Assembly: GCA_905250025.1 (NCBI GenBank)
Contig: CAJNOJ010000442.1
Span: 1-64,000, forward strand
Source of the DNA: Adineta ricciae
Taxonomy: Eukaryota; Rotifera; Eurotatoria; Adinetida; Adinetidae
Length of the DNA stretch: 64,000 nucleotides
Direction: 5' to 3'
The notes under the pieces were generated by a model. That model was not told the DNA's origin. It saw only the letters and a list, made by a program, of their open reading frames with translations, and did no database searches. Shown piece by piece: positions 14,660 through 64,000 of the stretch. The position numbers were made by a program, and so were the translations under genes. Positions within the stretch are counted from its first letter, which is position 1, and each line of letters begins with the position of its first letter.

Positions 14660-15129
14660 TCATTTAGATAATTATTACATCAAGCTCTAGATTCTATGCA
14701 AAACTTTCTTGTCAACTATTTCTCTCTATGCATATTCATGTTTTGTTCATTAAACTTTATTTTGTTGTGCTTAACATCTTTTACGTTCTTCCTCTCTATT
14801 CATCGAAGAACATTTTGGTTTGAATAAAGTTCATATTCCTATTCCAGATAACAAAACATCTTTTCTTATACTAATCAATGAATCAGTCCTGCACTACATC
14901 AACTTTTAATCAACCTCACTTAGGTAGTAAATGCATCACAAAATTAAGTGTCCAGTAGTAAGAATTTACCATCTTGAGGGTGATGATGTAGTCTTATACG
15001 AAGAAATTAAGAAAAATCTGTTACCGTAGTCTTTATTCAGTGTTGCCACACTCTCTGATATTCTTTGGTCGAAATATATTCATGTTGTATGTTCTAGATT
15101 AAATTGTATAGTTCGTGATATTCTCTTCG
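14660..15129. promoter_or_regulatory. Spacer between small ORF and ORF1
   Basis: This holds the 3' UTR of the small ORF (AATAAA near 14823) and presumably the ORF1 promoter. The same spacer recurs in copies B and C with high identity, so it moves as part of the element. The assignment is positional. Confidence 0.4.
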
Positions 15130-26750: not shown

Positions 26751-29201
26751 AGCTTTCAAAAAAGCATTGTAAAATGGTACAAGAGCTAAAACGGTTGACA
26801 TTAAACTTAGAATTACAGCGATATGAAGAGGACATCCATCGTTATGAACAGCTATACCAAGAAGAATTCAATAAGCTTCGACAACAAATTCTAAATCCAA
26901 CTTCATCTGACTACAAACATCAAATAGATATATTAATGTACTCTGTCGAATCCTATCTAAATAATTATAAGCATAGACTTTTACGTCAAATAAGACACAG
27001 AGAAGCATGTTTTCATACAAATTTGATTCGACAACGTCGTCGTCGACAATCGCTCATGACAGAAAACAACATTCAGGTGCATCCACAAATTATTGTCGAT
27101 GTTCAAAAAGTAGCGTTAAACGATGCCCAACTACAATTTCTCTCACAAAATGGTATTTACAAATCCATAGTTGTTTTCGAACTTTAGTATAGTTTATTGT
27201 TGGTTTTGTTTTTCTTCTCCTTTGCAAAGGTCCCAGTTACATTCGACCGAACCAAAGTTATTTTCATTGTGATCAACAACAACAGAAACAAGTCGATCGA
27301 GAATTTAACAATACTCTTGACGTAATCGTTCCTTATCACGTGCGTCTCTATCATAGGTCGCCAACATCAACAATTATCAGCTGATTCTCCCATCAATTGG
27401 CTACTTATCTGTGTGAACAGTACATGGCTCCAATTTCTTATCTTCATGCTCATCGTGCTCGACAAGAAAGAAAAGCAATCAAGTTCTTCGTGTAACGGAT
27501 AAAAGTGGCATAGTCCATATTGGTGACGCCAACGATTATGAACAAAAAGCACAAGCTTATCGAGAAAAAACGAAGGCGTATATCGAACTAGAAAATGATC
27601 CCCTATCCGTAGTTTTTGACAAGGCAGTCAATTTGCTCAATGATCTTCGTTCGAAAAAGCATATTCTTGCATGGCAATTTGATAAAATGATGCCGAAACG
27701 AGAGGACGCTCAACTAGCTTACCTGTATTTTGTTCCAAAACCACATAAGGTAATTTTTGAAAGTTTTTTCTTTTTTATCAATCTAAATTCCGTTTGTATT
27801 CACAGGAAGGAACACCATTAAGACCGATGGTGTCCTCAATGCATATGCCAACAACTGGCATTTCCAAGTTTCTTGATCGACTACTTCGACCATTATTTGA
27901 TCAACATGCTCGCTCAACTAGAATTATCGATGGTGTTGATCTCATTCGACCACTTCAAGCATACACTACAAATGGATATTTGAAGCCAACAATCTATTTG
28001 TGCACATTTGACATCACAGATTTATATACAATGTTACCACCGGAAGAATCTCTCGATATTCTAACTGAATTTCTTCTAGAACATGGATATACCAAAGTGA
28101 ATTCAGTGTCCATTGATGCCATTCGGAAATTAGCTCGTCTTGCTCTCACAGAAAATGTATTCACTTATGAGAAAAGATTCTATCGGCAAGTGATCGGCGG
28201 TGCTATGGGCTCTGCATTTACTTTGAGTTTAGCCAATGTTTTCTTATGGAAATGGGAAAAACCATTACTTCAGCAGCAGCTAAATACAAACGAAATCTAT
28301 GGAAGGTACGTTCAGTATCTTAGGAAAAGCGCTATTGTCTCAATATACTCTATTTATCTTTTATAGATATATCGATGATATCTTCTTTACTTCGAATCAA
28401 CCACTGGAGAAAATCAATGAAATGTTAGATCACGCCAACGATTTCCATCCAAATATCAAATTAGTTCGGCAAATTGGTAAGAATGTATCATTCTTAGATG
28501 TGCTTATTGAAAATGATCATGGTACATTGAAAACATCTGTGTATCACAAAGAAGCAGCCGAACCATACACAGTGCCATTTAATTCTGACCATCCTCATCA
28601 TACCTTCAGAAATACCATTGACACAGCACTTTTGCGTGCTGTACGCTATTCATCTACACTATCAATTTTTCAAAAAGAACAACGTACAATCAAACTAATG
28701 CTTCTTTACAACAAGTAATTTGATCTATTTCTGTATGTTCACAATCCGGTTTATCCGATATCTTCTAGCTATACACCACGGTTTATCTACAGCAGATCCC
28801 ACAATTTCATCACCTCTTATCCCAAAACTTCAAACATCCAACCATTCATACATGATGAAAATGAATTTAGAGCGATCCGACACAAAATGCTCAACATTCC
28901 AACTATTCTAGAATATCGAATGGCGCCCTGAATCGAAAGCGATAATGTTACCTCTGATCCTGAATCAGTAAAAACTGATGTACCAGAAACCAAATCCACA
29001 AAATGTTCGAAAAGGGAAAACCAACTCATAATTCATGACACTCATGAGCAACGCTTTCGGACATACAAACGAGATCTACACCAACTTTGGAATGAAACAT
29101 ATCGATCAACACCAATCATTCACACAAGACTAATCGTTGGTAACAGAAACAACAGAACGTTAGCACGAGAGATGATATGCCATCAACCGAAACGACCATG
29201 A
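26751..29201 (+). pseudogene. Athena-like reverse transcriptase, most complete copy (E), five introns in total
   Basis: Exons are 26751-27152, 27230-27749, 27806-28305, 28367-28714 and 28769-29201; all introns are GT-AG, 54-77 bp. RT motifs are all present: FDITDLYTMLP (motif A), GGAMGSAFTLSLAN (motif B) and YIDDIFF (motif C, split by an intron as AG|A for Arg). FLDVLI and the C-terminal RLIVGNRNNRTLA follow. The protein ends there with no GIY-YIG nuclease, as expected for Athena elements. Defects are the 5' cut at an N, a one-base frame change near 27480 and one TGA at 28929-28931. The role is RNA-templated DNA synthesis, probably at chromosome ends. Confidence 0.85.
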
Positions 29202-29534: not shown

Positions 29535-29580
29535 AACCAACTGATGAGACCCTTCAGCAAGGTCGAAACGCGTCTTGGTT
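29535..29580 (+). ncRNA. Hammerhead ribozyme at the 3' end of Athena-like copy E
   Basis: All core parts are present. Stem I is AACCAA (29535-29540) with TTGGTT (29575-29580). The core CTGATGA is at 29541-29547. Stem II is GACC (29548-29551) with GGTC (29561-29564) around a 9-nt loop, and GAAA is at 29565-29568. A minimal stem III (A-CGCG-T) follows, and the cleavage triplet GTC ends at 29574. Short stem III is known for hammerheads of Penelope-like elements, which often act as dimers. Cleavage would fall just 5' of telomere-like repeats. Confidence 0.88.
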
Positions 29581-29589
29581 TGCTTTGAC

Positions 29590-29605
29590 TCACCCACACC
29601 CACCC
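29590..29605 (-). repeat. Telomere-like CCCACA repeat tract 1
   Basis: CACCCACACCCACCC directly follows the hammerhead. Its complement reads GGGTGTGGGTG, matching the bdelloid TGTGGG repeat. The C-rich strand is plus, so the chromosome end it once marked would have pointed left. Confidence 0.75.
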
Positions 29606-29644
29606 TCTAATAGGTTCGAAATCGATTATGGTAGTTATATCTCA
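29605..29644 (+). repeat. 40-bp direct repeat next to telomere-like tracts, copy 1
   Basis: Begins CTCTAATAGGTTCGAAATCG and is repeated exactly at 29829-29868. Copy 1 follows a telomere-like tract; copy 2 precedes one. Confidence 0.85.
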
Positions 29645-29828: not shown

Positions 29829-29868
29829 CTCTAATAGGTTCGAAATCGATTATGGTAGTTATATCTCA
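29829..29868 (+). repeat. 40-bp direct repeat next to telomere-like tracts, copy 2
   Basis: Exact repeat of 29605-29644, starting CTCTAATAGG and ending ATATCTCA. The telomere-like tract 29867-29884 begins at its end. The 184 bp between the copies is AT-rich without a gene. Confidence 0.85.
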
Positions 29869-29884
29869 CCCACACCCACACCCA
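29867..29884 (-). repeat. Telomere-like CCCACA repeat tract 2
   Basis: CACCCACACCCACACCCA, three units on the C-rich strand. It lies between the second 40-bp direct repeat and unique sequence. Confidence 0.75.
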
Positions 29885-29968: not shown

Positions 29969-30008
29969 TTCAGTCGAGGGTTAAGCGAGTCTGCCTCGAC
30001 GAGCGTTA
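29969..30008 (+). repeat. 40-bp conserved hairpin element, copy 2
   Basis: Perfect 7-bp stem GTCGAGG/CCTCGAC with a 14-nt loop. It differs at one position from the copy at 35709-35748. It lies between the telomere-like tracts and the ART-TPR gene. Confidence 0.8.
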
Positions 30009-30259
30009 TTTATATCAATAGTGTTGAAATATATTAACAATGCTTGAGAGTGAGGAATGGCGAGGATGCATTTTTCTGTATCTCAACCTTTAACCACACC
30101 TAGAGCCGCACTTTGATTTCATCGTACTTTTATCCTTGCTTTTGTCCAGCGCTTATTCTCACACGTTTACCTACGCCACTCACCATCAAGATTATTCGCA
30201 CATGAGTTTATAAGAACATAAAAAAAAGTATGATTATTCATCTGAATTATAGTTAATAC

Positions 30260-42736: not shown

Positions 42737-44992
42737 ATGGATGAATCTTCGCTGTCTGCCGAAGAAATCCTAAGAAATAAGAAGAGCATTGACGAGCCGT
42801 CGAGAGATTTTCGTGTGAAAGCAACACAATTGTATTTGATAGTTGCGAAAGGCGAATACGACTTTCAGAATGAAAGATTAGATAGACTTCTGAAAGATTT
42901 TCCACCAGATACATACGATGTACCACTGACGCAAGAACAGCAGGCGGTAATCGACAACAAAGTTGACGACGACGATAACGATGGTGGAAATCATCCAAGT
43001 CTCACCCAAAGAGTACGAACACAAACAGATCTAAATCATGAAAACAGAATTGAGTCAAAAGGTTCAGAGATGTTTTCAGAATATGTCGAAATTTCGTACA
43101 AAAAAGCAATACTTGAAATCGAACGAGAAGTTCTTTTTTTAGAAGAACGCAGCGTCAAAGAGACGCCCTTCGAAATACAGAAAGCAAGAAAGATGAATCC
43201 TGTACTGTGAAAAGATTTCACGCTCCAAGTATAATCAATGAAACTAATCTAAGTCTTGATAGGGCCGAATATGATCTGCTGAAACTCGGTCCTAAGTATA
43301 TTCCTGATAACCCTCATCTCGCACATAAACGTATGAAAAACGAGATAGATGTGGTTATGGGAAAAATCAAAAAGATTTTTGGTGAACATGGATGGATATT
43401 ACCTGTTCAACGTTTTGAACTCTTTCAAGGTTCATTGACGAAGATATTGACCGGCTGTCACGATAAATATCATCCTTCAGATCACCTAAAAACAATCAAA
43501 AGTCTAGAAAGAAAGTTCGAAGCCACGAAAACAATCATCAGAAAAACAGATAAATCAAAAGTTTTTCATCTAGGTACAACTGATGATCACATAAACAAAG
43601 CTCGAACACACATGATGAAAACAGATGCATATCAGGACTTGAAAGGAAGAAATCCATTAGATGCATTGGTTAGTCGTACGAATGAGTTTCTATATGCTAT
43701 ATGGGTGAACAAGCATATAACCCAGAAGCATTGCGAAAATCTAAAAATACAACGGAGCGAAACTGAATTAGCTCATCTGTACTTCTTGCCAAAAGCGCAT
43801 AAACCGAATACACCATTGAGACCCATAGTAGCGGGAATGAAATCACCAACTATAGGGATATCCAAATGGTTAGATGATGTATTGAGACCGTTATTTAATC
43901 AATTAGCTTCTGAAACAGCAATTGAAAACGGTACTCAACTGATCAAGTCAGTTGAAAGATGTTCAGAGAATTATCTCACATCATCAACTACATTCATATC
44001 CATGGACGTGACAGATCTATACACAATGATCCCACAAGAAGGGGCAGTGATAGCTATCAAAAGATTACTAGAAGAACATAATCTTAAACAAATTGACGGT
44101 ATTAAGAAAGAAATTATCTTAGCTCTTACTAGATTTGTTCTAACTAATAATTATTTCTATTTTGATGGGTCATATTATAAACAGATAAAAGGAGGTGCCA
44201 TGGGTTCGCCACTAACCCTCACCATAGCAAATACATACATGTATTTTGTTGAACGTCCCATTGCGAAATGGGCTAAAAGAACGTTCTCATTGTACTATAG
44301 ATATATCGACGACTTATTCATCATGTCAAATGTACATGAAGACATATTAGAAGGTCTCGTGAGATTCTGGAATAGAATTGACAGTAGTATCATTTTTTTC
44401 CGAATCAATAGGAAAGAACGTTCAATACCTGGAAGTAGATTTTGAGAATAGAGGAGGGAAATTAATATCAAAAGTGTATCACAAACCTTCACATGAATTA
44501 TATTTTCTCCCTTTCTCTAGTATACATGCACAACATATAAAAAGGAATATTCCTTTCGGTGCTCTCGTTCGAGCAATAAGATACTCTTCAAGTTTTGATG
44601 ATTACAAACTAGAAGAAGCGCACATATGCTTGTCTTTGCTCTTGAACCAATATCCGTTGAATTTCATTTTGAAACAATTTGAAAGAGTTTCGCAAGCCTT
44701 TCATCGTGCAGTTCCGACACAACAGAATTTCTTGCAGATACGAAAAACCTTTCTAAATCACAAAAGAAATGAAATAATAAAAAAGAGAATTGATTTCGAG
44801 GTCAACACAATGTGGCATTTTTCCTTTTGTAAAGGTATGAGCGAATTTGCGACCAGTTTTCATACACTATGAAATCAATGTTTTTCGGATACACCAATAT
44901 GTAATAGGAAGCCTATTGTTGGTCCTAGAAGATTGCACAACCTTCTAGAGTATTTAGTACGTAAAAAACGAAATAAAGCATTCCTAAAATAA
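42737..44992 (+). pseudogene. Athena-2 reverse transcriptase, two frame changes and one stop
   Basis: The N-terminal part (MDESSLSAEEILRNKK, acidic, helical) runs to 43210, then shifts by one base into LDRAEYDLLKLGPKYIPD. The RT carries LAHLYFLPKAHKPN, SMDVTDLYTMIP (motif A), GGAMGSPLTLTIAN (motif B) and YRYIDDLFIMS (motif C). A second frame change lies in a T-run near 44390; the frame then resumes at GKNVQYLEVDFE. A TGA at 44870 precedes the last block (PIVGPRRLHNLLEYL). There is no GIY-YIG nuclease. No introns are seen, unlike copies A-E, so this is a distinct lineage. Confidence 0.85.
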
Positions 44993-44999
44993 TTTACCT

Positions 45000-45195
45000 A
45001 CCTACATCTTCTTCGCATCTCATAAGTAATCATAAAAAGAAGAAGATGCAGTGAACTTTTTCAACGAAACTATAGGCTCATTTAGCCCTAGTTTTTTGCT
45101 ATTACGGGTTCTTCAAGCCCTAACATAGTTCATTTCGAAAAATCTTTGTATTCCAAGTTGTTCATTGTAATTAAGTATATTTTAGAGTTTTTTGT
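45000..45195. other. Athena-2 3' UTR
   Basis: Follows the RT gene and is shared with the copy at 61.6-61.8 kb, including an AGAAGAAG stretch that is expanded there. No ORF. Confidence 0.55.
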
Positions 45196-45493
45196 ACAGT
45201 GGTTCTGATGAAGTCAAGTCGAAACTTGACAGAAACTAGTCAATAAAGTACGCAAAACGAACAATTCTTTTTCTCTCCTCATCTCAAACAAACAATTCTT
45301 AGATAGAATATCGACTAATTCTTTTAAATAGGAACTAGTCAACTGCTTTTCTTTTTCATATAGCTGGGAATACTGCTCCCATTAAGTGTTCGGACTATCA
45401 CGGAATCGGCCGTTTCCGTGCTGGATAGTGCGACCTCAGAAGGTGGTTTTCCTCTGAATAATGCTAATTACGGAAAGGTACCAGTTCAGTGTT

Positions 45494-49218: not shown

Positions 49219-50223
49219 GGAGCGCAAGTGTCGAAATTTTGAGCATGTTGCTTTTTCTACCTAGTAGAATTTCTCCGTATGTCATGCGTTCGCCATAGAT
49301 ATTTCGTATTTGTCATCGGATACCCATGCTAATGGCATGTACTGAAAACGCCTATATACCTGCACCAGAACTGCTGCTCCAAAAAAATGTCAACTATCGC
49401 GCAGAGAGCTCTTTAAGACCATTCCGTATCGCAGTCGCAGGTTGCCGCAGTTGCAATGGCTCAACAGTCGAAATAAGTAATACCTGTATATTCAAGAAAC
49501 ACCCTCTCCTGTACAACTACTGCCCACTATGCCGGTCACCATCTCACACAAATGCATGAGAAACAGCTCAGATCCTGATTTGCATGGAACCAAACGGTCA
49601 CTCATCGCTTCTACCACACCAACTTAGACAAAGACTACGGCATCCAAAAAATACCCTCAAGATAATTGGGAAAAACCAACACTTCTTCGAATCCCAAACT
49701 AAATGCAGTTCGACAACACAAAAGCAGATTCCTACATATACAGCATCAAAACTAAATCTTCATTCCTATCCACAGAGTAAAAACACCGATCCTGCCAGTT
49801 CCTCCCTACCCGATTCCATCAGCACAGCAGATTCTTATTCAACGTTGAAATGAAGCTTCTTTCACTTCACAAACCATGTAGTAGCCAAAATCTTGAGGCT
49901 CCATATCCAAACTACATTCCCCTTATATATAAAAACCTTCCACTTCAATCCTTCCAATAAATAACAAAATTCGACTTTACCATCAAATTTTCACCTCCCG
50001 TACACATATACCGATGTCGACCAAATCTAACAACATACCCGTGAACCGTTCTCCGTCTGACAACATAATTTCTGAGCATCACATCTCCTTTGTCACTGCG
50101 AAACAGTCTCTATTTCACAAAAAACTACGAACGATATCCACAATCGATCGTAAAAGCGACTTCCCAGTTAAGATTCACACCCACCCTCCATACATATCCA
50201 ACTGCGCATATCTGCGAGCATGG
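49219..50223. other. C/A-rich stretch resembling an Athena-type 3' UTR
   Basis: Three short ORFs (49326, 49584, 50014) lack family signatures. Base composition resembles the 3' UTR of copy E, and CACACCCACCCTCC at about 50167-50180 resembles the telomere-like junction near 29600. It ends at the boundary of the tandem duplication. The link to Athena elements is inference. Confidence 0.35.
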
Positions 50224-53100: not shown

Positions 53101-55392
53101 GATTCGTTCTGAGAATGTGATGTAACTTGTATTTGTGATAGTAGGAGAATTTCCTTCGAAACACAAGTCCAAAATACAATTCTGATTTTTTTGCTTCTGT
53201 TGGTGTGACTATAGAAAAGAGACGGCGAAGAATCTTGTATAAATTATTGTTAGTATTCGTTTTTGCTAGCGTACCAAATCACAAATTGGACACCAGAAGA
53301 GGAGGTGTCTCACACTCAAGTATAATAATGCAGAGANAGTACTGTTGGCTTTTTATACATTGAAGAAATGTGTTCATATATAATCCATTTTCGTATCTCT
53401 CTTCTTGTACTTTCTCAAACCGGATGTCATTGTTTTTCAGCCAAAATTATTCCGTTTATATATATAAAAGTCAATATAATTACTTCACTGAAGATTTACC
53501 AAATCATTTCCTGCTGGATATGAAGCTTCCACATATCTCTTTTAGTCGTAAAAATCAGTTTATTCGCTCTAGTTGTAATCCAGACATTCAATTTTTATGA
53601 TTTCGCTACATTACTTACGCGCCACATTCTATAATAATAAGAAAACAGATTTCACTCAAAAATTTCTCATTACAATATTAATGAAAGAATGATAAAATAG
53701 CATGGATAAATAGGGTATCATTTTCCCTGTAGACACTATATAAAATAGTCGCATTATCAACGATGTATCATAGGATTACATATAATTTACTAACTGCTGT
53801 AAAAACAAACCTTAGACATTGCTAGCATTATTTTGGAAAGCAGCGGTATTAACGACCGAGTTCCATTCCTTTTTTGATATATGCTGCAATGGTTGCTTCG
53901 AGAAAAGATTTTTCCAGTCGATATTTTGCGATAAAATGATAACCAATATATGTTCGGTCGACAAGATTGTGCAATATAAATAAAAAAGGTACACTTCTGA
54001 ACTCGTGGGTAGACGCTCTGAATTATCATGTACAATAGCCTATTTTTTGGAATACGGAACTTAGAAAAGTTTTGAAAAAGATGTTTCAGAGCGTTTACTC
54101 GTGGTTGGATCCTTTTTTGGCCTCGCAGATTTGGAAAACCGCTTTTTGCAACATGTTGACACATTCGAAAGTTCTTTGTCGCTCACGAAATCTTTTCAGC
54201 AGGTTTAGCAGTGTAACTTTTTTATTTACAGTGCAAACACTCGTTTTCTTCCGCTTAGGATATTGGCTACTTAAAAAAGGTACATATACTCACCATTACT
54301 AGAATGCAAGCTGAAACGAATGAAACTAAAAGGCACATGTGAAGAAAAAGAATACAGTAGCTGTAAGATAGAGAGCTGTATTTACGTGTGTATCTGTGCA
54401 TGACTATTTAACTAGTATGTACGTTAACGACCGATACGTCATATAAATATAATATTTTTCGTTTCTATTCACTTCCTTTCGGCTATTGGTAAGATACTGT
54501 ATGTATATGATATTGAAACTAGCTAGGTATTGGCATTTATCTAATGAATAAAACTGACCAAGTTCCATTAATAAACTTTTGTGATCGTATTGATAACAAT
54601 AAGCTTACCTAAATAAACTATTTCACATCATTTACTAGCGTTCTGTTTAAAACACCAACAGTTCACAATTTGATTATCTTAATACTGCGTTCTAGAAAAT
54701 TTATTTTACAGAATCCCAAAAGTTTCATATTTATGCATCAATGATCTGAATAGAAATTCAAACAATGAAAACATTTCGTAGTTTCAAGCATTTCTTTAAG
54801 CTTTTCTCTTGCTTTTTTTTTCAATAAAAGGGCAAGTTTTTTTCTCGTTAACCTCAACTGTACCAACACCTACGAGGCTGTATTAGCTTCATATTCAATA
54901 CCATACAATACCTGACTTCATGTCCAACCACTGAAACCGATATCGTGAAAGGTTCCACATCCATCACAAATACCATTTAAATCAAAAGAGACTATCATTT
55001 CGACGCTCATTTAACATTAGATCATGGAAAACAGATACACAGGAAATAATAAAGTGAAGCAACAATATTATCTATTCAACTCTAAGATTGAGAATTTGAA
55101 CTTCATATAAATCAGTACAAAATTTCCTTTATTTTCTAACTTCGCTCTGATCATCTGCAAAATACAAAAGAATGGACACATCATGAGCCCACAGAGAGCA
55201 ATACTCAATGAAACCCATGCTGTATTCGTACATAGCCCCGTCCTATGCGGAAAACCAAAGCTATTATCTGCTTCAATAATTTATTTCTCACGCATCTCAT
55301 ACATCACTATTCGGAATCGAATCATCTATTTACATCTCACCCGCTTCAATCATATCAATCAAAAGAACAAATCATTGTAAACGAAAATTTCA
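53101..55392. other. Unclassified region, no firm gene
   Basis: About 2.3 kb with an N at 53337. A minus-strand ORF at 53812-53994 (IDWKNLFSKQPLQHISKKEW) is protein-like in composition but isolated. A T-run plus CAGTGCA segment lies near 54225. The stretch 54850-55200 is C/A-rich like Athena-type UTRs. Nothing else is supported. Confidence 0.4.
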
Positions 55393-56620
55393 TTTACTCT
55401 GGCAGTCCGACAGCATACCATGTGCATGGAAACAAGCGGTAATCATTCCACTGTTCAAGAAAGGGGATAATCAAGAATGCGAAAATTACGGTGGAATAAG
55501 CCTGCTTTCAATCGTGGGCAACGACTTCAGACAAGACACGAACAATTGGCGCGGGAAGAACAAGCTGGCTTTCGTCCGTGCAGAGGCTGCTGCGATCAAG
55601 TATTCACACTACGACAATTGCTTGAAGAACATATTCGTTGTGGCAAGAGACTAGTTGCTGTATTCATCGATTTCGCCACTGCATTTGACAGTGTTCACCG
55701 ACCGGCACTATGGAGATCACTTGTTGCTGAGGGTGTGCCTGACAAGATCGTACATTTACTACAACAGTTGTACGAAGGGACGAAAAGCTGCATTCGTGTA
55801 AATGGAAAAAAAATCTGAAGAATTTTCGGTACATACAGGTGTTCGTCAAGGCTGTGTCGCCTCACCACTGCTCTTCAATATAGTTGTTGACGCAGTCATG
55901 AGAAAAGTCTTTAAAAATCGACATGGTGTACAATTTGGTGATAACGAATTCATTACAGATCTAATGTTCGCTGATGACAGCGTAGTCTTCGCAGAATCAG
56001 AATCAGAAGCTTCTGAAGTCATTCAAAACGTCAAAGATGCTGCGTATCCATACGGCTTGATCGTCAAACTCGACAATTTACAACTTGAACAAGTCCAGCA
56101 ATACAAGTACCTGGGTTCAATAGTCGAAGCGCAAAGAATCGCTGCAACAGCAGACATCACCAAGCGAATCGGACAAGCTACAGCAGTGTTTGGAACATTG
56201 ACTTGGTGCTTTTGGTGCAAAATGCGGATCTATAAATCACTCGTTCTCTCAGTGTTGCTGTATGGTGCGGAATCATGGACATTACTACAGAGCGACCTAA
56301 AGAAACTCGAAGTCTTTCAAATGCGCTGTCTACGTCGTATCTTGAGTATCTCAATTCGAGATAAAGTAAGAAATGAAACCATCAGGAAGTGGTATTGCGA
56401 TCAACCTAGTATATCCGATGAAATTCAAAAGCGACGAATGCGTTGGTTTGGCCATATCAGAGATGACCTCGAAAAACACAGGCTTAGTCCAGTGGAACCA
56501 AAAGAACAAGCACTGGACAAACAACAATGGAAGGTCATTACACACAAAGTCATCAATGGCATAGTAGCACCTACAGCAGCGTACTGGTTGCGCGGGCGAC
56601 CTCCACCAGTCGTGCGCTAA
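55393..56620 (+). pseudogene. 5'-truncated LINE reverse transcriptase
   Basis: Broken frames read VIIPLFKKGDNQECENYGG, EEQAGFRPCRGCCDQVF, VFIDFATAFDSVHRP (motif A), GVRQGCVASPLLFNIVVD (motif B) and LMFADDSVVFAE (motif C). A C-terminal QKRRMRWFGHI and RGRPPPVVR tail follows. Frame changes lie near 55520 and in an A-run near 55808. The sequence around motif A differs clearly from the LINE at 36-39 kb, so it is another family. No endonuclease is present. Confidence 0.85.
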
Positions 56621-56770: not shown

Positions 56771-56810
56771 TTCAGTCGAGGATAATGCGAGTCACTCTCG
56801 ACGAACGTTA
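56771..56810 (+). repeat. 40-bp conserved hairpin element, copy 4
   Basis: Most divergent copy (stem GTCGAG/CTCGAC kept, loop changed). It starts a few bases beyond the stop codon of the GH35 pseudogene. Confidence 0.75.
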
Positions 56811-56818
56811 TTTATTTC

Positions 56819-58915
56819 TTAGTTTATAATAATACGCTGAACAAGACCAACCGATCCAGGTGATGGCGCTCCCAAATCATCAAATACAGTAATTAAATTA
56901 TTTTTCGGCATAACCCAATCTGGTGGAATATGATAATATCGTTGCGTTGGCTCGACACAACCAGTTTGCGTTTGTGTACACCAGCCCGGTGTTGTCTGAC
57001 AGACAGCTTGAATTAACCAATAGAGACCAATGTCATTTCCATTAATAAATATATGTCCACGATTCAGACCTTGAGCATCAAGTAATATTGGATTTGTATT
57101 GGTATCTTCTCGTATAAGATGATCAAGATCAAATCGTGCTTGAAACCATGTTATTGTTTTATTAATACTTTTAGTCCAATCACTATTCCATGGAACTTCT
57201 ACTGAACCTTTTTCCGTGAAAATTTGCAAATTTTCTCCCACTAAACCTTTTTGATGTTGCCAGAAATTAGTTTCGGTTTGATTATCGACTAGTAATTGCC
57301 CATCAAGCCATACGTTACCAACGATTCCTTTATAATCCAAATTATATGCTGGTACACCGCTGTGTAGTCCAAGCGAAATCGAAAGAATTTCGAGTAAATG
57401 CTGCTGATTTATGGTGAAATTTGAAAGATCTAAAAGGATTTTTGCGTCAATATAGTCTAGTCCTGCTTCATGATTATTGAATTCAGCTAAATATTTTCCA
57501 TCCATAAAAATTAATAGTGCATTTCCTTGACGTGTTTGTACTTGAAGTAAGATTTGTGAAGATGTGTGATTTAATGTTACATTCCGACGATACCATAGAT
57601 AAATAGTTTCATCTTCAGTTATTATAAGTTGTTCAATCGGTTTTGGAGAAGATACAAATGGTAAGCTCGATACAGTCGGTTCAGACCACGTTCGCCATTC
57701 AAGTGGACCAGCAACAATAGGAACTATTTCTGTATTGTTACTATTAATATCACTATAATTTGCACTGTCATACAATATAATCATATTATCGTCATAGATA
57801 CGAACTGATTTAGCAGATACTGTGATATTTTGATTTCGATAGAGTACACTAATTGGGTTCTGAAATTGATTGACTACAAAATACATGGATGGTGGATATG
57901 AGTAAACGAATTGCTGAGTACCATTAGCCCATGCCATGCCATTCCAGTAAGGTAACATAGTACGATTTGGATTTTGACTTAATAGAACTTCAGCACGATC
58001 GGCAATTAAATGTTGTAGACGACTCAATTGAGTATATTTCGGTTCATTTGGTGTACCATCAGAATGTAAACACACATCGTCAGCATATTTTGTTGCAATA
58101 GCTGAGGCCGCTGTGCGTCCATAATTGTTTCCTCCATGCCACATGTAATAGGCATGATAAGCACCACCGCCAGCAAACCATCCAGCAACTGCATTAGCAA
58201 TATCGGCTGTTGTGCGTACATTCATTGGGTCTCCCCAATATTGAAGCCATCCTTAATCCTCAGTAAATAACATCGGTTGACCAGGATAAGTATATGGATG
58301 ACGATCAATCCATCCATCATCTAAACAGTTGCATGAATTGCATGTTTCGATTGTCGAATTCGCTGCATAACCATTACACATAATCCAAATAATTTCTGTT
58401 GATGCAAGTTCATTTCTCACTAAATCACCACACCATTTCACATAATCAAAATCAGGCGTACCGTATTCATTTTCAATTTGAGCAAGGATAATAGGACCAC
58501 CATTTTTAGCAAGATAAGGTGTTATATAATCGATCAGATTCAAAATGAATCGACGCATTATATTTTTCCATGGATCATTATTTGAACGAATTGATATATT
58601 TGGTATTTGATTGATCCATACTGGCATTTCACCATAATTCCATTCAGCGCATATATACGGACCTATGCGTAGATTCACAAATAAACCAGTAGTAGCAGCT
58701 TCTTCAAGAAAACGACTTAGATTGGCACGACCACTAAAGTCAAGTACACCTTGTTTGTATTCGTGTATATTCCAAAAAACATAAGTTTGAATCGTATTAA
58801 GACCTTGATTTTTAGCCATTTTCATTATATAAGGCCACATGCCTGGTGTTGAACGAGAATAATGTATAGCACCCGATATAAGCATCGTTCGAACATTATT
58901 TATCGTTATCGCCAT
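56819..58915 (-). pseudogene. GH35 beta-galactosidase pseudogene, 5'-truncated, one nonsense codon
   Basis: About 699 codons. The first residues read MAITINNVRTMLISGAIHY, which corresponds to the start of the GH35 catalytic barrel; the signal peptide and preceding residues are missing. The acid/base Glu lies in AQIENEYG (about 147) and the nucleophile Glu in LFTED (about 219). A TAA at 58255-58253 follows at codon 221, inside the conserved GW-containing block (GWLQYWGDP), and the frame then continues open to 56819. The C-terminal jelly-roll part includes GHIFINGNDIGLYW. Both catalytic residues survive, so decay is recent. The family removes terminal beta-galactose from glycans. The upstream end is capped by telomere-like repeats. 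Confidence 0.9.
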
Positions 58916-58921
58916 CTTGAG

Positions 58922-58957
58922 GGTGTGTGGGTGTGGGTGTGGGTGAGGGTGTGGTGT
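58922..58957 (+). repeat. Telomere-like TGTGGG tract at the truncated 5' end of GH35
   Basis: GGGTGTGTGGGTGTGGG and on, about five imperfect TGTGGG units. It directly abuts the GH35 start (3 bp between). The G-rich strand runs away from GH35, the polarity of a chromosome end capping the gene. Confidence 0.85.
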
Positions 58958-58975
58958 AGATAGAGGATGTCATGA

Positions 58976-59013
58976 CTATAGTTTTGTCCTTTCTCAAGGG
59001 ACGTTCATCAGGT
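58976..59013 (-). ncRNA. Degenerate hammerhead ribozyme
   Basis: On the minus strand CTGATGA (59013-59007) is followed by GTCC/GGAC stem II around CTTGAGAAA. The core then reads AAAA where GAAA is expected, and AC is inserted after CTGATGA. The loop (CCCTTgAGaAAGG) closely resembles that of the hammerhead at 29535. The cleavage triplet GTC and telomere-like repeats follow in the same order. It is probably inactive. Confidence 0.6.
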
Positions 59014-59019
59014 AGTTTA

Positions 59020-59368
59020 TGATAGGAGTCATGATCTGAATGGAGTTCTAGAAGAGGTAGTATTATGAGTCGCTTTTATCGTAGTGCAGTGAAGAATGAT
59101 GAAGTGAAGTTTTTTATTATGTTGTTTATCGTGACAAAAGGGAACTACGCAAAGGAGAAATGTACATCGGGGTTGTAAAGTTTCAATCGGTTGTTTGAAA
59201 AAGTGGTGATGGTTGCTTTGGTTGGCTGTTTATTTGTTTTGACGATTATCGGTGGTGATAGCTAGAACGTCTTGGCTTTACACGCGCTCGTAGTAGTATG
59301 GAGACTAAAATAGAAGATTGAAGGAAAAGAGGATTTATTTGGCGAAAAGTGAGATCGGTTTAGATCCC
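59020..59368. other. 3' region of the minus-strand element
   Basis: About 350 bp with no ORF of note, between the hammerhead remnant and the membrane-protein gene. Confidence 0.4.
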
Positions 59369-60128
59369 TTAGTACCTACGACTACGAGGTGTGGGTTGTC
59401 CACTGTGAGGTACTGGAGCAGACTTCGGTCTGTTGGCTGATGAATTAGCGGTGACAGATAAATTGTATCTGGTTCTTCTTTCTGCAGCTCTAAGGTGGTG
59501 ATTGATTGTGATTATGAAAGGAAATGAGTGGTCGAACGGGGTACATGTACTCACGTTGGGTTTGACATGACTTTGATGTGTAATGTACTGGTCGATGGAC
59601 TTTTCGGCAATGACCGAGTGAGTAAATGATAATAACTGTCGTCGAGAATACAATTAGTATAACGAGCAGAGCTATAATAAGAATAAGAATGAGAATGATG
59701 GGTGTTGAGTTGAAGTCGAGTGAATTGGTAGTTGATAGTTGACCTGTTTGATGCGAATGGACAGAAAACACAATGAATGATATTTCTTTGCGATCTCGCT
59801 GGAGCTCTGCATCGCCTGTGATACTCGATAGTAGATGATTGATTCGAACACATACTGGGGACTTGTGGTTGAGTAGTTGTGGTTGCTATCGTGTCAGGAC
59901 TCATTATATTCGAACAAGGTTCAGTCATCTTAAGCAGTTGCTTTTCCAATTGATCACATGAAACACATTTGGGCCCAAGCCAGCAGTCTTGTGTATTTTT
60001 TTCCATAGAACTGGCACGGATTCGTTCCGAGCAATCGACCACTTGATGAAATATGCTTCATTTGAAAACTGACTTTGTTTTGGATAAACTTGGAAAAGTT
60101 GTTGAGAAATACTATCTGAAACGGACAC
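59369..60128 (-). CDS. Single-pass membrane protein, cysteine-rich ectodomain (model uncertain)
   Basis: A Cys-rich segment (KNTQDCWLGPKCVSCDQL, then MTEPCSN) precedes a TTTTQPQVP stretch. A candidate 40-bp intron (CCCA|GTATGT to TATCACAG) restores the frame into SDAELQRDRKEISF. A strong transmembrane helix follows (ILILILIIALLVILIVF). A second GTGAGT...ACCTTAG intron leads to a last exon ending RSRRY or, in another frame, VVVGTKGI. Upstream frames disagree around an A7 run near 60000, so one base may be missing. It lies downstream of the small proline-rich ORF on the same strand and may be an accessory gene of the element. No family recognised. Confidence 0.45.
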
Positions 60129-60129
60129 C

Positions 60130-60647
60130 GTAAGAAACTAAGGTGAAGAATTCTTATATTGCTAAAACATCGTAAAAATTATGAGTGTTACGACTTCACG
60201 CGTGTCTCCAGAGAGGTTAAATCACTTGAGTGACTGAAACTTATTGTTTTACCATTGGAAGATGATCAGAAACGCCAAGATTGTTGAATAATCGGAAAAG
60301 ATATATTTCATTTCGCATTCGTACATATTCGAGAGATTCAAATATAATAACACCTAAATCTACTATACTGCACATCTCGGAATTCCTTACCTATTTGGAA
60401 AATTTGATGTATGACTGATTTGTGGTACGATTAAACGGTTCTGTATTGCTGAGATAGATCTGTTTATATCTGCAATAGACAAAGAAGCTATGGTTAAGTT
60501 TAGATAAATGCGTTTAAACACATAATAGGCTTGCAATTCTTTACGCTTTGCAGCGGAAGAGAACATAAAGGAGAAAACAGTATAGTATATAATAAAGTGA
60601 GTCATTGGAATGAACATATAAGCTAATAAACGATTTACTAGTAAAGA
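60130..60647. other. Intergenic, no gene recognised
   Basis: About 520 bp of AT-rich DNA between two minus-strand ORFs; probably holds the promoter or an upstream exon of the membrane protein. Confidence 0.4.
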
Positions 60648-61016
60648 CTAAAGTTCGTGGAAGTATGTCTGTTTATGGTAAAATCGACTGACTTGTTTCT
60701 GATCAGGTTCATTTTTGATCGACATATTCTTGACACATTTTGATAATAATCGAACGTTGGACAACGAATTAGATAATCCTGAATCTGGTATGTTGAATGT
60801 AACCCTTAGACCTCGCGGTTTTGGATTTGGATCTCGTGGTGTTGCTTTTAATGTTTTCGGCGATGGCACACTTGGAGTTCTTGTTATTACTGGAAGTGGA
60901 TTTGCCAGTTGGTCCTTTTGAATTGTAGGTGACACAGTATAACTTATATAACCATTGGTTCGGATCATGTGTTTGTTAAGGTGTGATGGCACTAGTACAC
61001 ATCCACCTTCACTCAT
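60648..61016 (-). CDS. Small proline-rich ORF (family P), diverged homologue
   Basis: The product is 122 residues. VITRTPSVPSPKTLKATPR, then RGLRVTFNIPDSGLSN and LLSKCVKNMSIKNEPDQ align with the ORF at 14333-14659 (VPSPxT, F-N-I-P-D, LSK). The shared part is about 80 residues, and the first 25 and last 15 differ. It is intact here although copies B and C are broken. Function unknown. Confidence 0.65.
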   Translation of the reverse strand: MSEGGCVLVPSHLNKHMIRTNGYISYTVSPTIQKDQLANPLPVITRTPSVPSPKTLKATPRDPNPKPRGLRVTFNIPDSGLSNSLSNVRLLSKCVKNMSIKNEPDQKQVSRFYHKQTYFHEL

Positions 61017-61226
61017 ATTTTCTTTTGCTCATGTTCGTGTATGCATTCCTTTATTGTTTCCACACATATTCGTTTATGCATTCTTTTCCTTTCTTCATTC
61101 GTTTATACATTCGCGCTATCTTTTTTTCTATTCGGTGAGAAGATTTGTATTGTTTCGTGGAACGCGAATAAACAGTTTAGGTATATAGTCGAACTAGATC
61201 AAAGGATATACAATCCTAACACTCAC

Positions 61227-61970
61227 CTTTGCTCTTGAACCGATATCCGTTAAATTTCATTTTGAAACAATTTGAAAGAGTTTCGCAAGCCTTTCATTGT
61301 TCAGTTCCGATACAACAGAGTTTCTTGCAGATACGAAAAACCTTTCTAAATCACAAAAGAAATGAAATAATAAAAAAGATAATTGATTTTGAGGTCAACA
61401 CAATGTGGCATTTTTCCTTTTGTAAAGTTATGAGCGAATTTGCGACCAGTTTTCATACACTATGAAATCAATGTTTTCCGGATACACCAATATGTAATAG
61501 GAAGCCTATCGTTGGTTCTAGAAGATTACACAACCTTCTAGAGTACTTAGTACGTAAAAAACCAAATAAAGTATTCCTAAAATAATTTACCTACCTACAT
61601 CTTCTTCGCATCTAATAAATAATCATAAGAAGAAGAAGAAGAAGAAGAAGATACAATAAACATTTTTAACGAAACTACGGGTTCATATACGCGTAGCTCT
61701 AGTTTTTCACTACTACGGGCTCTTCAAGCCCTGACATAGTTCATTTCGAAAAATCTTTGATTCCAAGTTGTTCATTCTAATTAAGTATAATTAGAGTTTT
61801 TTGTACAGTAGTTCTGATGAAGTCAAATCGAAAATTGACAGAAACTAGTCAATAAAGTACGCAAAACAAACAACTCTTTTTCTCTCTTCATCTCAAGGAA
61901 ACGATTCTCAGATAGAATGTCGACTAACTCTTTTAAATAGGAACTAGTCAGCTGCTTCTCTCTTTCATAT
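61227..61970 (+). mobile_element. 5'-truncated Athena-2 copy
   Basis: Matches about 44633-45363 from the C-terminal RT block through the terminal segment. It carries the same TGA after FHTL, an expanded AGAAGA tract near 61630-61651 and the hairpin segment near 61816. The sharp 5' start suits incomplete reverse transcription. Confidence 0.85.
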
Positions 61971-62551
61971 AGTTGATATAGATGAGTAACCCAGACGAAA
62001 GAAAAAACATAAAGCTCGGCCGCTAAGAGATCCTCCATACGATCAAAACATTTTGCAGGTTAATGTTCAAAAGAACTCGCTCGTTATAACTACGGTGGAA
62101 TGTCATAACGTTTTGCTAATTTTGCTCAACTATCAACATTTAGACATATAGTCATACCTCCAACAGTAATATCATTGAAAAAAGCATGAATTTAATGGCG
62201 AACAAGTGATTGCATATATATTTTTTTGTTTAGATTAACATTAATCCAAAAGTATTGTTTTATTATGTATGCTTTTTTGTTTTCTAACAACTATTACTAA
62301 ATTCAATCTAGGATCATATTTTGAGACATTACCAATTCGTTTAGTGTTGATTTAGTTTCAACAGATAATTCTATACGTAAATTGGTCTTTAACGTCAACA
62401 TCCTTCTCTATTCCCACACGTACAAAGATTCAAAGATTTAATCTTATACATTAGAAGTCACCTAGTAATTCTTGAATATCCCAAATAAAGCCCTCTGACT
62501 TCTTTCTAAAAACTCCATCATTTCTAAAATTTAGATTTCGCAAGCCTGCCT
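61971..62551. other. Intergenic, no gene recognised
   Basis: AT-rich, no feature seen. Confidence 0.4.
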
Positions 62552-63105
62552 CTGACTCAATCTTCCAATCGTGATATTGAAAGAAAATAATATGCACTTA
62601 TATTCTTTTGAGAGGACAAAGAAGAGATTCATCCCTTTTCTTTTCCTTTCGCTCTTCACTAGTTTGAGGTATTTTTCCGTGGTAGGAAGTTGTGACGAAG
62701 GTTGTTCCGACGTATTCAAATCTATGACGCAATCTTCCAATCGTGATATCGAAAGAAAATAATATGCACCCATATTCTTATGAGAGGACAAAGAAGAGAT
62801 TCATCCCTTTTCTTTTCCTTTCGCTCTTCACTAGTTTGAGGTATTTTTCCGTGGTAGGAAGTTGTGACGAAGGTTGTTCCGATGTATTCAAATCTTTGAC
62901 TCAATCTTCGAATCGTGATATCGAAAGAAAATAATATGCACCCATATTCTTATGAGAGGACAAAGAAGAGATTCATCCCTTTTCTTTTCCTTTCGCTCTT
63001 CACTAGTTTGAGGTATTTTTTCGTGGTAGGAAGTTGTGACGAAGGTTGTTCCGACGTATTCAAATCTATGACTCAATCTTCCAATCGTGATATGGAAAGA
63101 AAATA
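62552..63105. repeat. 172-bp tandem satellite, about 3.2 copies
   Basis: Units start near 62558, 62731, 62903 and 63075 (CAATCTTCCAATCGTGATAT). Unit-to-unit differences are few. Repeated 63-residue ORFs at 172-bp spacing on the plus strand and overlapping minus-strand ORFs are by-products. Confidence 0.9.
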
Positions 63106-64000
63106 AGTTACGCACGAGCGATCATAGTAGACGAATCTATATAAAATGGGCTTGTCCATTGCTTTTTACTTTTTTAAGAGAGGGGTATATCTATTTTGAT
63201 GTTTTATCGTTGGTAGTCATTTGGTCGGTAGGAAGGTAGGTGAAAACTTGCTGTATGCAGCGAATCCATACTTTTTCAATAATATGACGCAACATCCTCA
63301 AGAAAATGAGCTGTGGGCTGTAGTTCGAATGTGCCTCTAATAGAACTGCTAGATATGCTATGCTTTTGATGCTGTTATATGTCATAGATAATGTTGCATC
63401 TAAATGCATGATTTATCAAATTTTGCTCATTCTGTAGGAGGCCATACAAGTCAATTAGATGAAGTTTTTGGATGTAGTTGATAGAAGTTGATAAATTTGA
63501 CATGAACCTTGTCGTATTTCTTACATGAGAGCCTTTTGATTTCAGCGATATGTGCGAGTTTTTTTTTCATATGAATTGATTTTATGGCTTGCTAAAATAA
63601 TCCAACTAACTGAATATAGGTGCAAAGATGTGGCTGATCAAGAACTTGACCTATACAGAGCTGATGAATTATATTTATATTGGAAGCTTTATTGTAACGT
63701 AACAATAGGGTTCTCGATACAGAAAGCTTCATCATAAGTGATGTGAGAAAGGACCATCGTGATAACTTAGTTTTAAGTCTCTACTCAGTGATCGTTAGTT
63801 CATTAATGTCATATGATCTTGTTCATGGGATCGTGTGCAGTACCGTTAAGATTGTAAGTTATATAGAGAAAATACTATAGAAGTCTTCTGCGTAGTTTTT
63901 GGTATCCTTTATATTCTTATTATTGCGGTTCGAATGGGTTTATCTTTAGAGGAAGTATTTTAATTTCTGTGTTTTCGAATATTCATTTTCGAAAAATCGC
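63106..64000. other. Window end, no gene recognised
   Basis: About 900 bp of AT-rich sequence; a 61-residue ORF at 63552-63737 has no support. Confidence 0.4.

Follow-up and report, generated by a model that had tools for sequence, protein, structure and literature searches.

A truncated GH35 gene capped by telomere-type repeats and a retroelement end in Adineta ricciae, with a recurrent motif at the junction

The GH35 remnant and its intact paralogs

The stretch of DNA analysed here (the window) comprises bases 1-64000 of contig C442, which is 70,464 bases long, in the Adineta ricciae assembly (130.46 Mb, 1033 contigs; the other contigs are designated in the same way). On its minus strand lies a GH35 (beta-galactosidase) gene that lacks its 5' part and adjoins a short tract of telomere-type units, beyond which comes the decayed 3' part of an Athena/Terminon-type element (Table 1). 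The GH35 barrel is matched by Pfam PF01301 (Glyco_hydro_35; E 5.6e-64) from profile position 2 onward, within the minus-strand frame 58253-58969, and the frame 56819-58252 continues past an in-frame TAA through the C-terminal domain. The initial annotation, which placed the feature at 58253..59013, contains the junction between gene and tract but covers only the first part of the GH35 remnant (56819-58912).

Table 1. Features of the GH35 junction, of the element abutting it and of the second, opposite-facing element (window coordinates)
Feature	Position	Strand	Evidence
GH35 (beta-galactosidase) remnant without its 5' end; the rest co-linear as far as the normal C-terminus	56819-58912	-	Pfam GH35 and BetaGal_gal-bd; paralog alignments; 691 codons compared
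In-frame TAA stop within the GH35 remnant	58253-58255	-	sequence
Single base separating the end of GH35 homology from the seed; filler or overlap	58913		sequence; codon alignment
Seed ATCTTGAGGG, gene side of the repeat tract	58914-58923	+	sequence; genome-wide counts
Telomere-type tract: TGAGGG, TGTGTGGG, TGTGGG, TGTGGG, TGAGGG, TGTGG	58918-58955	+	sequence
Degenerate hammerhead (58974-59015) and spacer, element 3' end	58951-59015	-	model R1; regex and alignment of 11 copies
Decayed 3' part of Athena/Terminon-type element, ~2 kb	58951-60976	-	85% C634; 76%, 81% C281; 75-76% two places C298
Short-ORF remnant, two overlapping pieces in two frames	59560-60178	-	tblastn 57%, 58%
RT-like frame of the other element	27872-28823	+	tblastn with P0222, 37% and 40%, E 6e-55
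Hammerhead ribozyme, 3' end of that element	29535-29580	+	Rfam Hammerhead_1 30.8 bits, E 1.1e-5, gathering 34
C-rich units of telomere type, immediately following the 29.5 kb hammerhead	29587-29610	+	word search; second stretch 29866-29883

Four full-length paralogs, with stop-to-stop frames of 741-747 aa, are present in the same genome on C14, C38, C193 and C634, those of C14 and C38 being near-identical and probably alleles of each other; the closest database relatives of the remnant, P0001 (78%) and P0002 (76%), are both full length as well. Upstream of the residues AITIN, each of the four paralogs carries a further 35-39 residues in the same open frame (48 from the first Met in C634), consisting of a signal-peptide-like start, as judged by eye, and the 19 residues preceding AITIN. 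These first ~35-39 codons are missing from the window copy, which begins at AITIN, and the original description of a truncated gene with no signal peptide is thereby borne out. An intron ahead of the barrel was considered and rejected, since the four paralogs read through this region in one open frame. At the DNA level, homology with the C14, C38 and C193 genes stops in the alignment at one shared base, 58912, and the local alignment with the C634 paralog stops earlier, at 58892.

The missing 5' part is absent from the far side of the element, and a search for it elsewhere in the genome, as originally proposed, yielded no separate piece. A 44-residue N-terminal query gave six genome matches at E<=10, none of them on C442: the four intact paralogs, one weak match on C158 and one orphan at C193:135392. 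The orphan (C193:135392-135560) was rejected as the lost piece; it is a near copy of the start of C193's own GH35 gene, N-joined to the later part of that gene, and is probably an assembly or allele artefact. The proposed comparison with intact copies could be made with the four paralogs, in which the seed motif is not present at the corresponding place, but no unbroken allele of the locus itself was found in the assembly. C875, tried as such an allele, matches at 91-98% over 53334-55399 and has no match past 55399.

dN/dS is 0.13-0.22 in the four pairs that include the window copy, vs 0.06-0.12 in the six other pairs, with dS being high, and this gives only a hint of possibly relaxed selection on the remnant. 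Because the remnant has one stop in ~698 codons and a dN/dS only slightly above that of the other pairs, the break seems to be recent when set against the paralogs.

A broken reverse transcriptase (RVT_1, in two frames and LINE-like by look) lies on the plus strand at 55471-56620, just downstream of the GH35 stop. A hairpin-like stretch noticed by eye (TTCAGTCGAGG...TCGACGA.CGTTATTTAT) occurs in near-identical form downstream of two minus-strand genes of the window, at 56772-56812 and at 29974-30014, in the latter case within a dispersed repeat.

The junction and the elements on either side

Read on the plus strand from 58914, the junction begins with ATCTTGAGGG, here called the seed, and continues with TGTGTGGG and the remaining units of the tract up to 58955. 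The words GGGTG, TGTGGG and TGAGGG together occur ten times on this strand within 58918-58952, and TGTGGGTGTGGG, with at most two mismatches allowed, has ten matches in the 64 kb window (five of them in the tract) vs 1.39 (sd 1.19) in shuffles. TGTGGG has been identified in A. vaga (PMC7943196), and it is with this A. vaga repeat that the A. ricciae tract is compared. The TGTGGG-type units beside the gene are thus confirmed, as is the polarity reported for them at the outset: the tract is on the plus strand and GH35 on the minus, with the G-rich strand directed away from the gene. With repeats that start at a break inside a gene and a G-strand pointing outward, the site resembles de novo telomere addition (chromosome healing), from which it differs in its first added bases, a recurrent non-repeat motif, and in the retroelement that overlies the end.

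Gene and tract might also have been brought together by a misjoin or collapse of the assembly at ~58.92 kb. The assembly does contain at least one N-joined near copy, the C193 duplicate, and it is from the assembly that the junction is known; the junction, however, contains no N, the gene break and the seed lie one base apart, the seed recurs elsewhere and the polarity is as expected, all of which makes an artefact of this kind highly improbable.

The element abutting the tract ends, as had been recognized initially, in a degenerate hammerhead in minus orientation. Over the 1.5 kb beyond the tract the element has relatives on other contigs. Eleven copies, the window's among them, share this end, in which CUGAUGA leads into a short helix II and GAAAC into a helix III of two pairs with GUC; helix I comes next, and then a spacer of ~15 nt and CACACCC-like units. 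Rfam, searched over 58700-59400, gave four weak matches at E<=10 and no hammerhead, and none of its hammerheads matched this end type; a purpose-built model (R1), derived from ten relatives with the window copy left out, does find the end, at 58951-59015 on the minus strand (67.3 bits, E 6.8e-15). Over the 11 rows of the alignment 94.2% of cells are paired, and sliding the partner by 1-3 columns leaves at most 49.6%. A two-sided change (GU, UA, AU) is seen at one of the 11 pairs, which belongs to helix II. The covariation score and the count of double-change cells were reached in none of 500 shuffles, but the number of pairs with a double change was reached in 442 of the 500 and the number of further pair types in 408. 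The window copy has lost a core G, two of its four modelled helix I pairs are broken, and (ACACCC)n/(TCACCC)n units lie directly downstream of it, at 58918-58955.

The short ORF that survives here as a remnant is retained, in longer frames, in the C634, C281 and C298 copies. The arrangement is that of the Athena/Terminon telomere-associated Penelope-like elements, with a minus-strand hammerhead, a short spacer and (ACACCC/TCACCC)n joined to other DNA, G-strand outward; the difference is that the window copy is reduced to 2 kb, with only the 3' part present, and that its ribozyme is decayed. Because tblastn found no RT in 58951-60976, the element is filed as an apparent truncated remnant whose 3' end resembles the Athena/Terminon family, rather than as a full member. 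The initial identification of an Athena-type retroelement end is upheld with regard to the 3' hammerhead and the units, but only for a decayed fragment.

The element lies 11.5 kb from the contig end, which is without a telomere array. Since no telomere-type cluster is found between the element and the contig end, a terminal history of the GH35/element site is something that we only infer; the site is internal now, as an FG-GAP repeat frame (C442:68473-69633) lies distal to the capped break. This distal DNA, which over 59-70 kb combines repeats with a gene in a mosaic and lacks a telomere-type cluster, would be compatible with end joining, in which the broken GH35 end was ligated to a piece already bearing both repeats and element, and no repeat synthesis took place there. 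The seed, however, lies exactly on the gene side, as it does at other sites, and random joining would not produce such a placement, which leaves ligation an improbable source of the cap.

Several other repeats occur in this region. A dispersed repeat of ~250 bp, with partial copies on several contigs, lies at the outer edge of the element (60971-61221), and 61227-61975 is a 90% copy of 44634-45366; a weak RT-like piece of Penelope-like kind (E 0.009 to 0.04) is seen on the plus strand at 61229-61318. A 172 bp tandem repeat (3.2 copies, 96%) occupies 62553-63106, and C329 carries a relative of 62553-64000 (84%).

The second element of the window faces the opposite way. Its RT-like frame at 27872-28823, which is putatively Penelope-like by its motifs, has weak domain support (RVT_1, E 0.11) and matched none of the PDB sequences; the relative P0222 scored E 2.4e-4 and 7e-4 against two RT families, both below the family cut-offs, and its structure model (mean pLDDT 46.6) was too poor for a fold search. 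On either side of the segment at 29.9-58.9 kb lies an element 3' end with its G-strand outward. The segment is not pure host DNA, because the first ~130 bases inside its left boundary are a dispersed repeat and other element pieces lie within it. A further RT-like piece of Penelope-like kind is present inside the segment at 43870-44695 (plus strand).

Related element ends and the recurrence of the seed

Genome-wide, the first type of hammerhead end, that found beside GH35, occurs at 19 places within three mismatches (the decayed window copy is not among these), and the second, canonical type at 31 places within one mismatch, including the window copy at 29.5 kb; the reversed control gave 0 for each. 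Most of the 19 relatives go on with telomere-type units and then with differing flanks. Flanks mostly differ between copies, with C488 and C722 sharing theirs and C493 and C537 likewise. A set of 34 junctions was assembled from 19 of the first type and 15 of the second, both window junctions being included; eight of these have no CACCC within 110 nt of the matched word, and hence not every copy bears telomere-type units.

At the C634 joint, a GPCR-like frame (7tm_1, E 1.4e-5, under the Pfam cut-off) ends ~150 bases ahead. On C298, P0222, the RT-like relative, aligns only from its residue 95 of 327, at a CACCC tract and 40 bases from the next hammerhead; this is a second case of a coding frame that lacks its 5' side, is capped and has a hammerhead end behind it. 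Pfam and PDB gave nothing useful for the RT-like frame in the C298 array, which has 375 database relatives, with domain PF26215 common to the 120 relatives listed, and which is again putatively Penelope-like by its motifs. The hammerhead end on C298, which stands behind an RT-like frame lacking its 5' part and closed off by a CACCC tract, corresponds to the layout given for Terminons (PMC6431247).

The seed itself is widespread. CTTGAGGGTGNGNG occurs 343 times in the genome, vs 0 for the reversed pattern and ~3 expected (an estimate from base composition), and in 215 of the 343 (63%, vs ~35, or ~10%, expected) the seed follows AT (ATCTTGAGGGTGNGNG). The CNNNAGGGTGTGGG class provides a fairer control, with 144 sites vs 8 for the reversed pattern; among the first 100 listed of these 144 sites, 59 have CTTG, 14 have CATG and 27 have some other word. 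The sequence was read at six of the 343 sites (on C3, C5, C30, C79, C89 and C178), and as these were chosen from rows reading CTTGAGGGTGTGGG, only their flanks and 3' end are informative. The flanks are mutually dissimilar, and four of the six go on with TG (GGGTG) before diverging. In the ~17 bases viewed past the matched 14-mer, neither known element type is represented by its spacer, and none of the 50 hammerhead places found is on the contigs of these six sites; a ribozyme of another type may lie further on. A Helitron-like start (between A and TC) was considered for the seed and dropped, as C or A sometimes stands ahead of CTTGAG and the flanks differ.

At element junctions the seed is found, as exact CCTCAAG (CTTGAGG on the G-strand), at the host side, that is, the far end of the tract, in 7 of the 34, the other 27 being without it. 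Longer TGTGGG arrays were viewed on eight contigs (C581 and C934 left out): that of C171 starts with CTTGAGGG, that of C94 with TTGAGGG, and six with neither. The purpose-built model found no hammerhead in the array loci of C171 (2.0 kb) and C94.

Within the window, ATCTTGAGGGTG is also found on the plus strand at 14971, 19491 (there as TTGAGGGTG) and 22128, in a recurring stretch common to these places; it is followed by ATGATG or TTGATG and so falls outside the 343-site pattern, and either chance or a link with the seed could account for it. On the minus strand at 49653-49663, ATCTTGAGGGT is followed by ATTTTTTGG, which may be a further scar or may be due to chance.

These distributions bear on the proposal that an endonuclease-less element primed in one step on the broken GH35 end, with the repeats, and perhaps the seed, supplied by the element RNA's 3' tail and telomerase playing no part; element RNA tails would then end in CUCAAGAU. 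Priming at breaks is stated to be possible (PMC3846280), the copies on C634, C281, C488, C722 and C537 join their flanks via only one or two units, and the seven seed-bearing element junctions are also in keeping with such an origin. The same seed is, however, common to elements of two hammerhead types, and it is present both on contigs where neither type was found and at the C171 array, whose 2.0 kb locus gave no hammerhead match; single-step priming thus seems to us somewhat unlikely.

Proposed history of the locus and its significance

There is good support for a break in the gene and for the capping of the broken end. The best reading of the order of events is break, then repeats, then element, which is preferred because the motif with which the tract opens beside the gene also stands at the start of tracts where no hammerhead was found. 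The initial annotation had proposed chromosome breakage, healing and later element addition; truncation, capping and polarity agree with this, while priming in one step by element RNA competes with it as regards the succession of events.

The explanation that we favour as a whole, and consider moderately probable, combines a cut, telomerase-type extension from the seed, the copying on of an Athena/Terminon RNA, and decay. GH35 would have been cut at ~58912/58913, with loss of the upstream part from this chromosome arm, the truncation being what is observed. The free 3' end would have been extended by ATCTTGAGGGTG(TGTGGG)n, the sequence seen there today, most likely by a telomerase that entered its RNA template a few bases outside the repeat portion, to give a G-rich overhang directed away from the gene. 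Ends of the HHR-(ACACCC)n type are described as attaching to G-rich overhangs, with priming at deprotected telomeres or breaks (PMC6431247, PMC3846280), and by this mechanism an RNA of Athena/Terminon type, terminated by hammerhead-(ACACCC)n, may have paired with the overhang and been copied onto the end, giving rise to the 2 kb remnant. Later the silent GH35 remnant would have gained its stop codon and the ribozyme would have decayed, and the arrival of other element pieces and the FG-GAP frame on the distal side would have made the site internal.

Because a non-repeat motif on the gene side is common to two element types and to sites where no element end was found, we take the best explanation of the seed to be that it was copied from sequence adjoining the template in telomerase RNA, where CAAGAU would lie next to the repeat template. 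The 27 junctions without the exact seed and the six longer arrays without it speak against this. A template edge of this kind might also yield TGAGGG units, when a TG end realigns there. More specifically, ATCTTGAGGG may be the first stretch copied by the bdelloid telomerase at a broken end, from a template near 5'-CACCCACACCCUCAAGAU-3', with hundreds of break scars as the result; this is a tentative proposal, to which we give rather less than an even chance. A search of the accessible literature gave no combination of TTGAGGG with bdelloids, and the motif is not described in the available portions of PMC6431247 and PMC3846280, though it may be reported in the primary Terminon/Athena papers; no rotifer telomerase RNA is named in the accessible parts of the literature on telomerase RNA and rotifers.

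The nearest precedent for reading the seed in this way appears to be the vertebrate TERC-ITS, telomeric insertions beside a non-repeat copy of telomerase RNA that have been ascribed to break repair (PMC8537989, PMC2246262). In both cases telomeric repeats adjoin non-repeat sequence; here, in contrast, the extra motif is only ~6 nt long, its link to telomerase RNA is inferred, and it is found at hundreds of places, known from occupied sites. The locus is a new case of known processes, and the recurrent seed is what is new.

If the telomerase reading is true, the telomerase RNA is expected to hold ACACCCUCAAGAU, and if the seed sites result from break repair, empty sites are expected without a pre-existing ATCTTGAG. 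A seed that is the edge of the telomerase template would provide a direct handle on the bdelloid telomerase RNA, would account for the TGAGGG variant units, and could tell telomerase-made scars from those made by retroelements. Were ATCTTGAGGG indeed copied first, the genome would carry hundreds of signed break scars, some of them short inserts and others occupied by Penelope-like elements; one such scar would lie in the window, where C442:29.9-58.9 kb would have a cap at either end, because the elements flanking it face outward. A single oddity thereby becomes a signature in the sequence, whose occurrences can be counted throughout a genome that desiccation and DNA breaks have shaped, and the seed scars, if that is what they are, would map desiccation breaks and point to the telomerase RNA.
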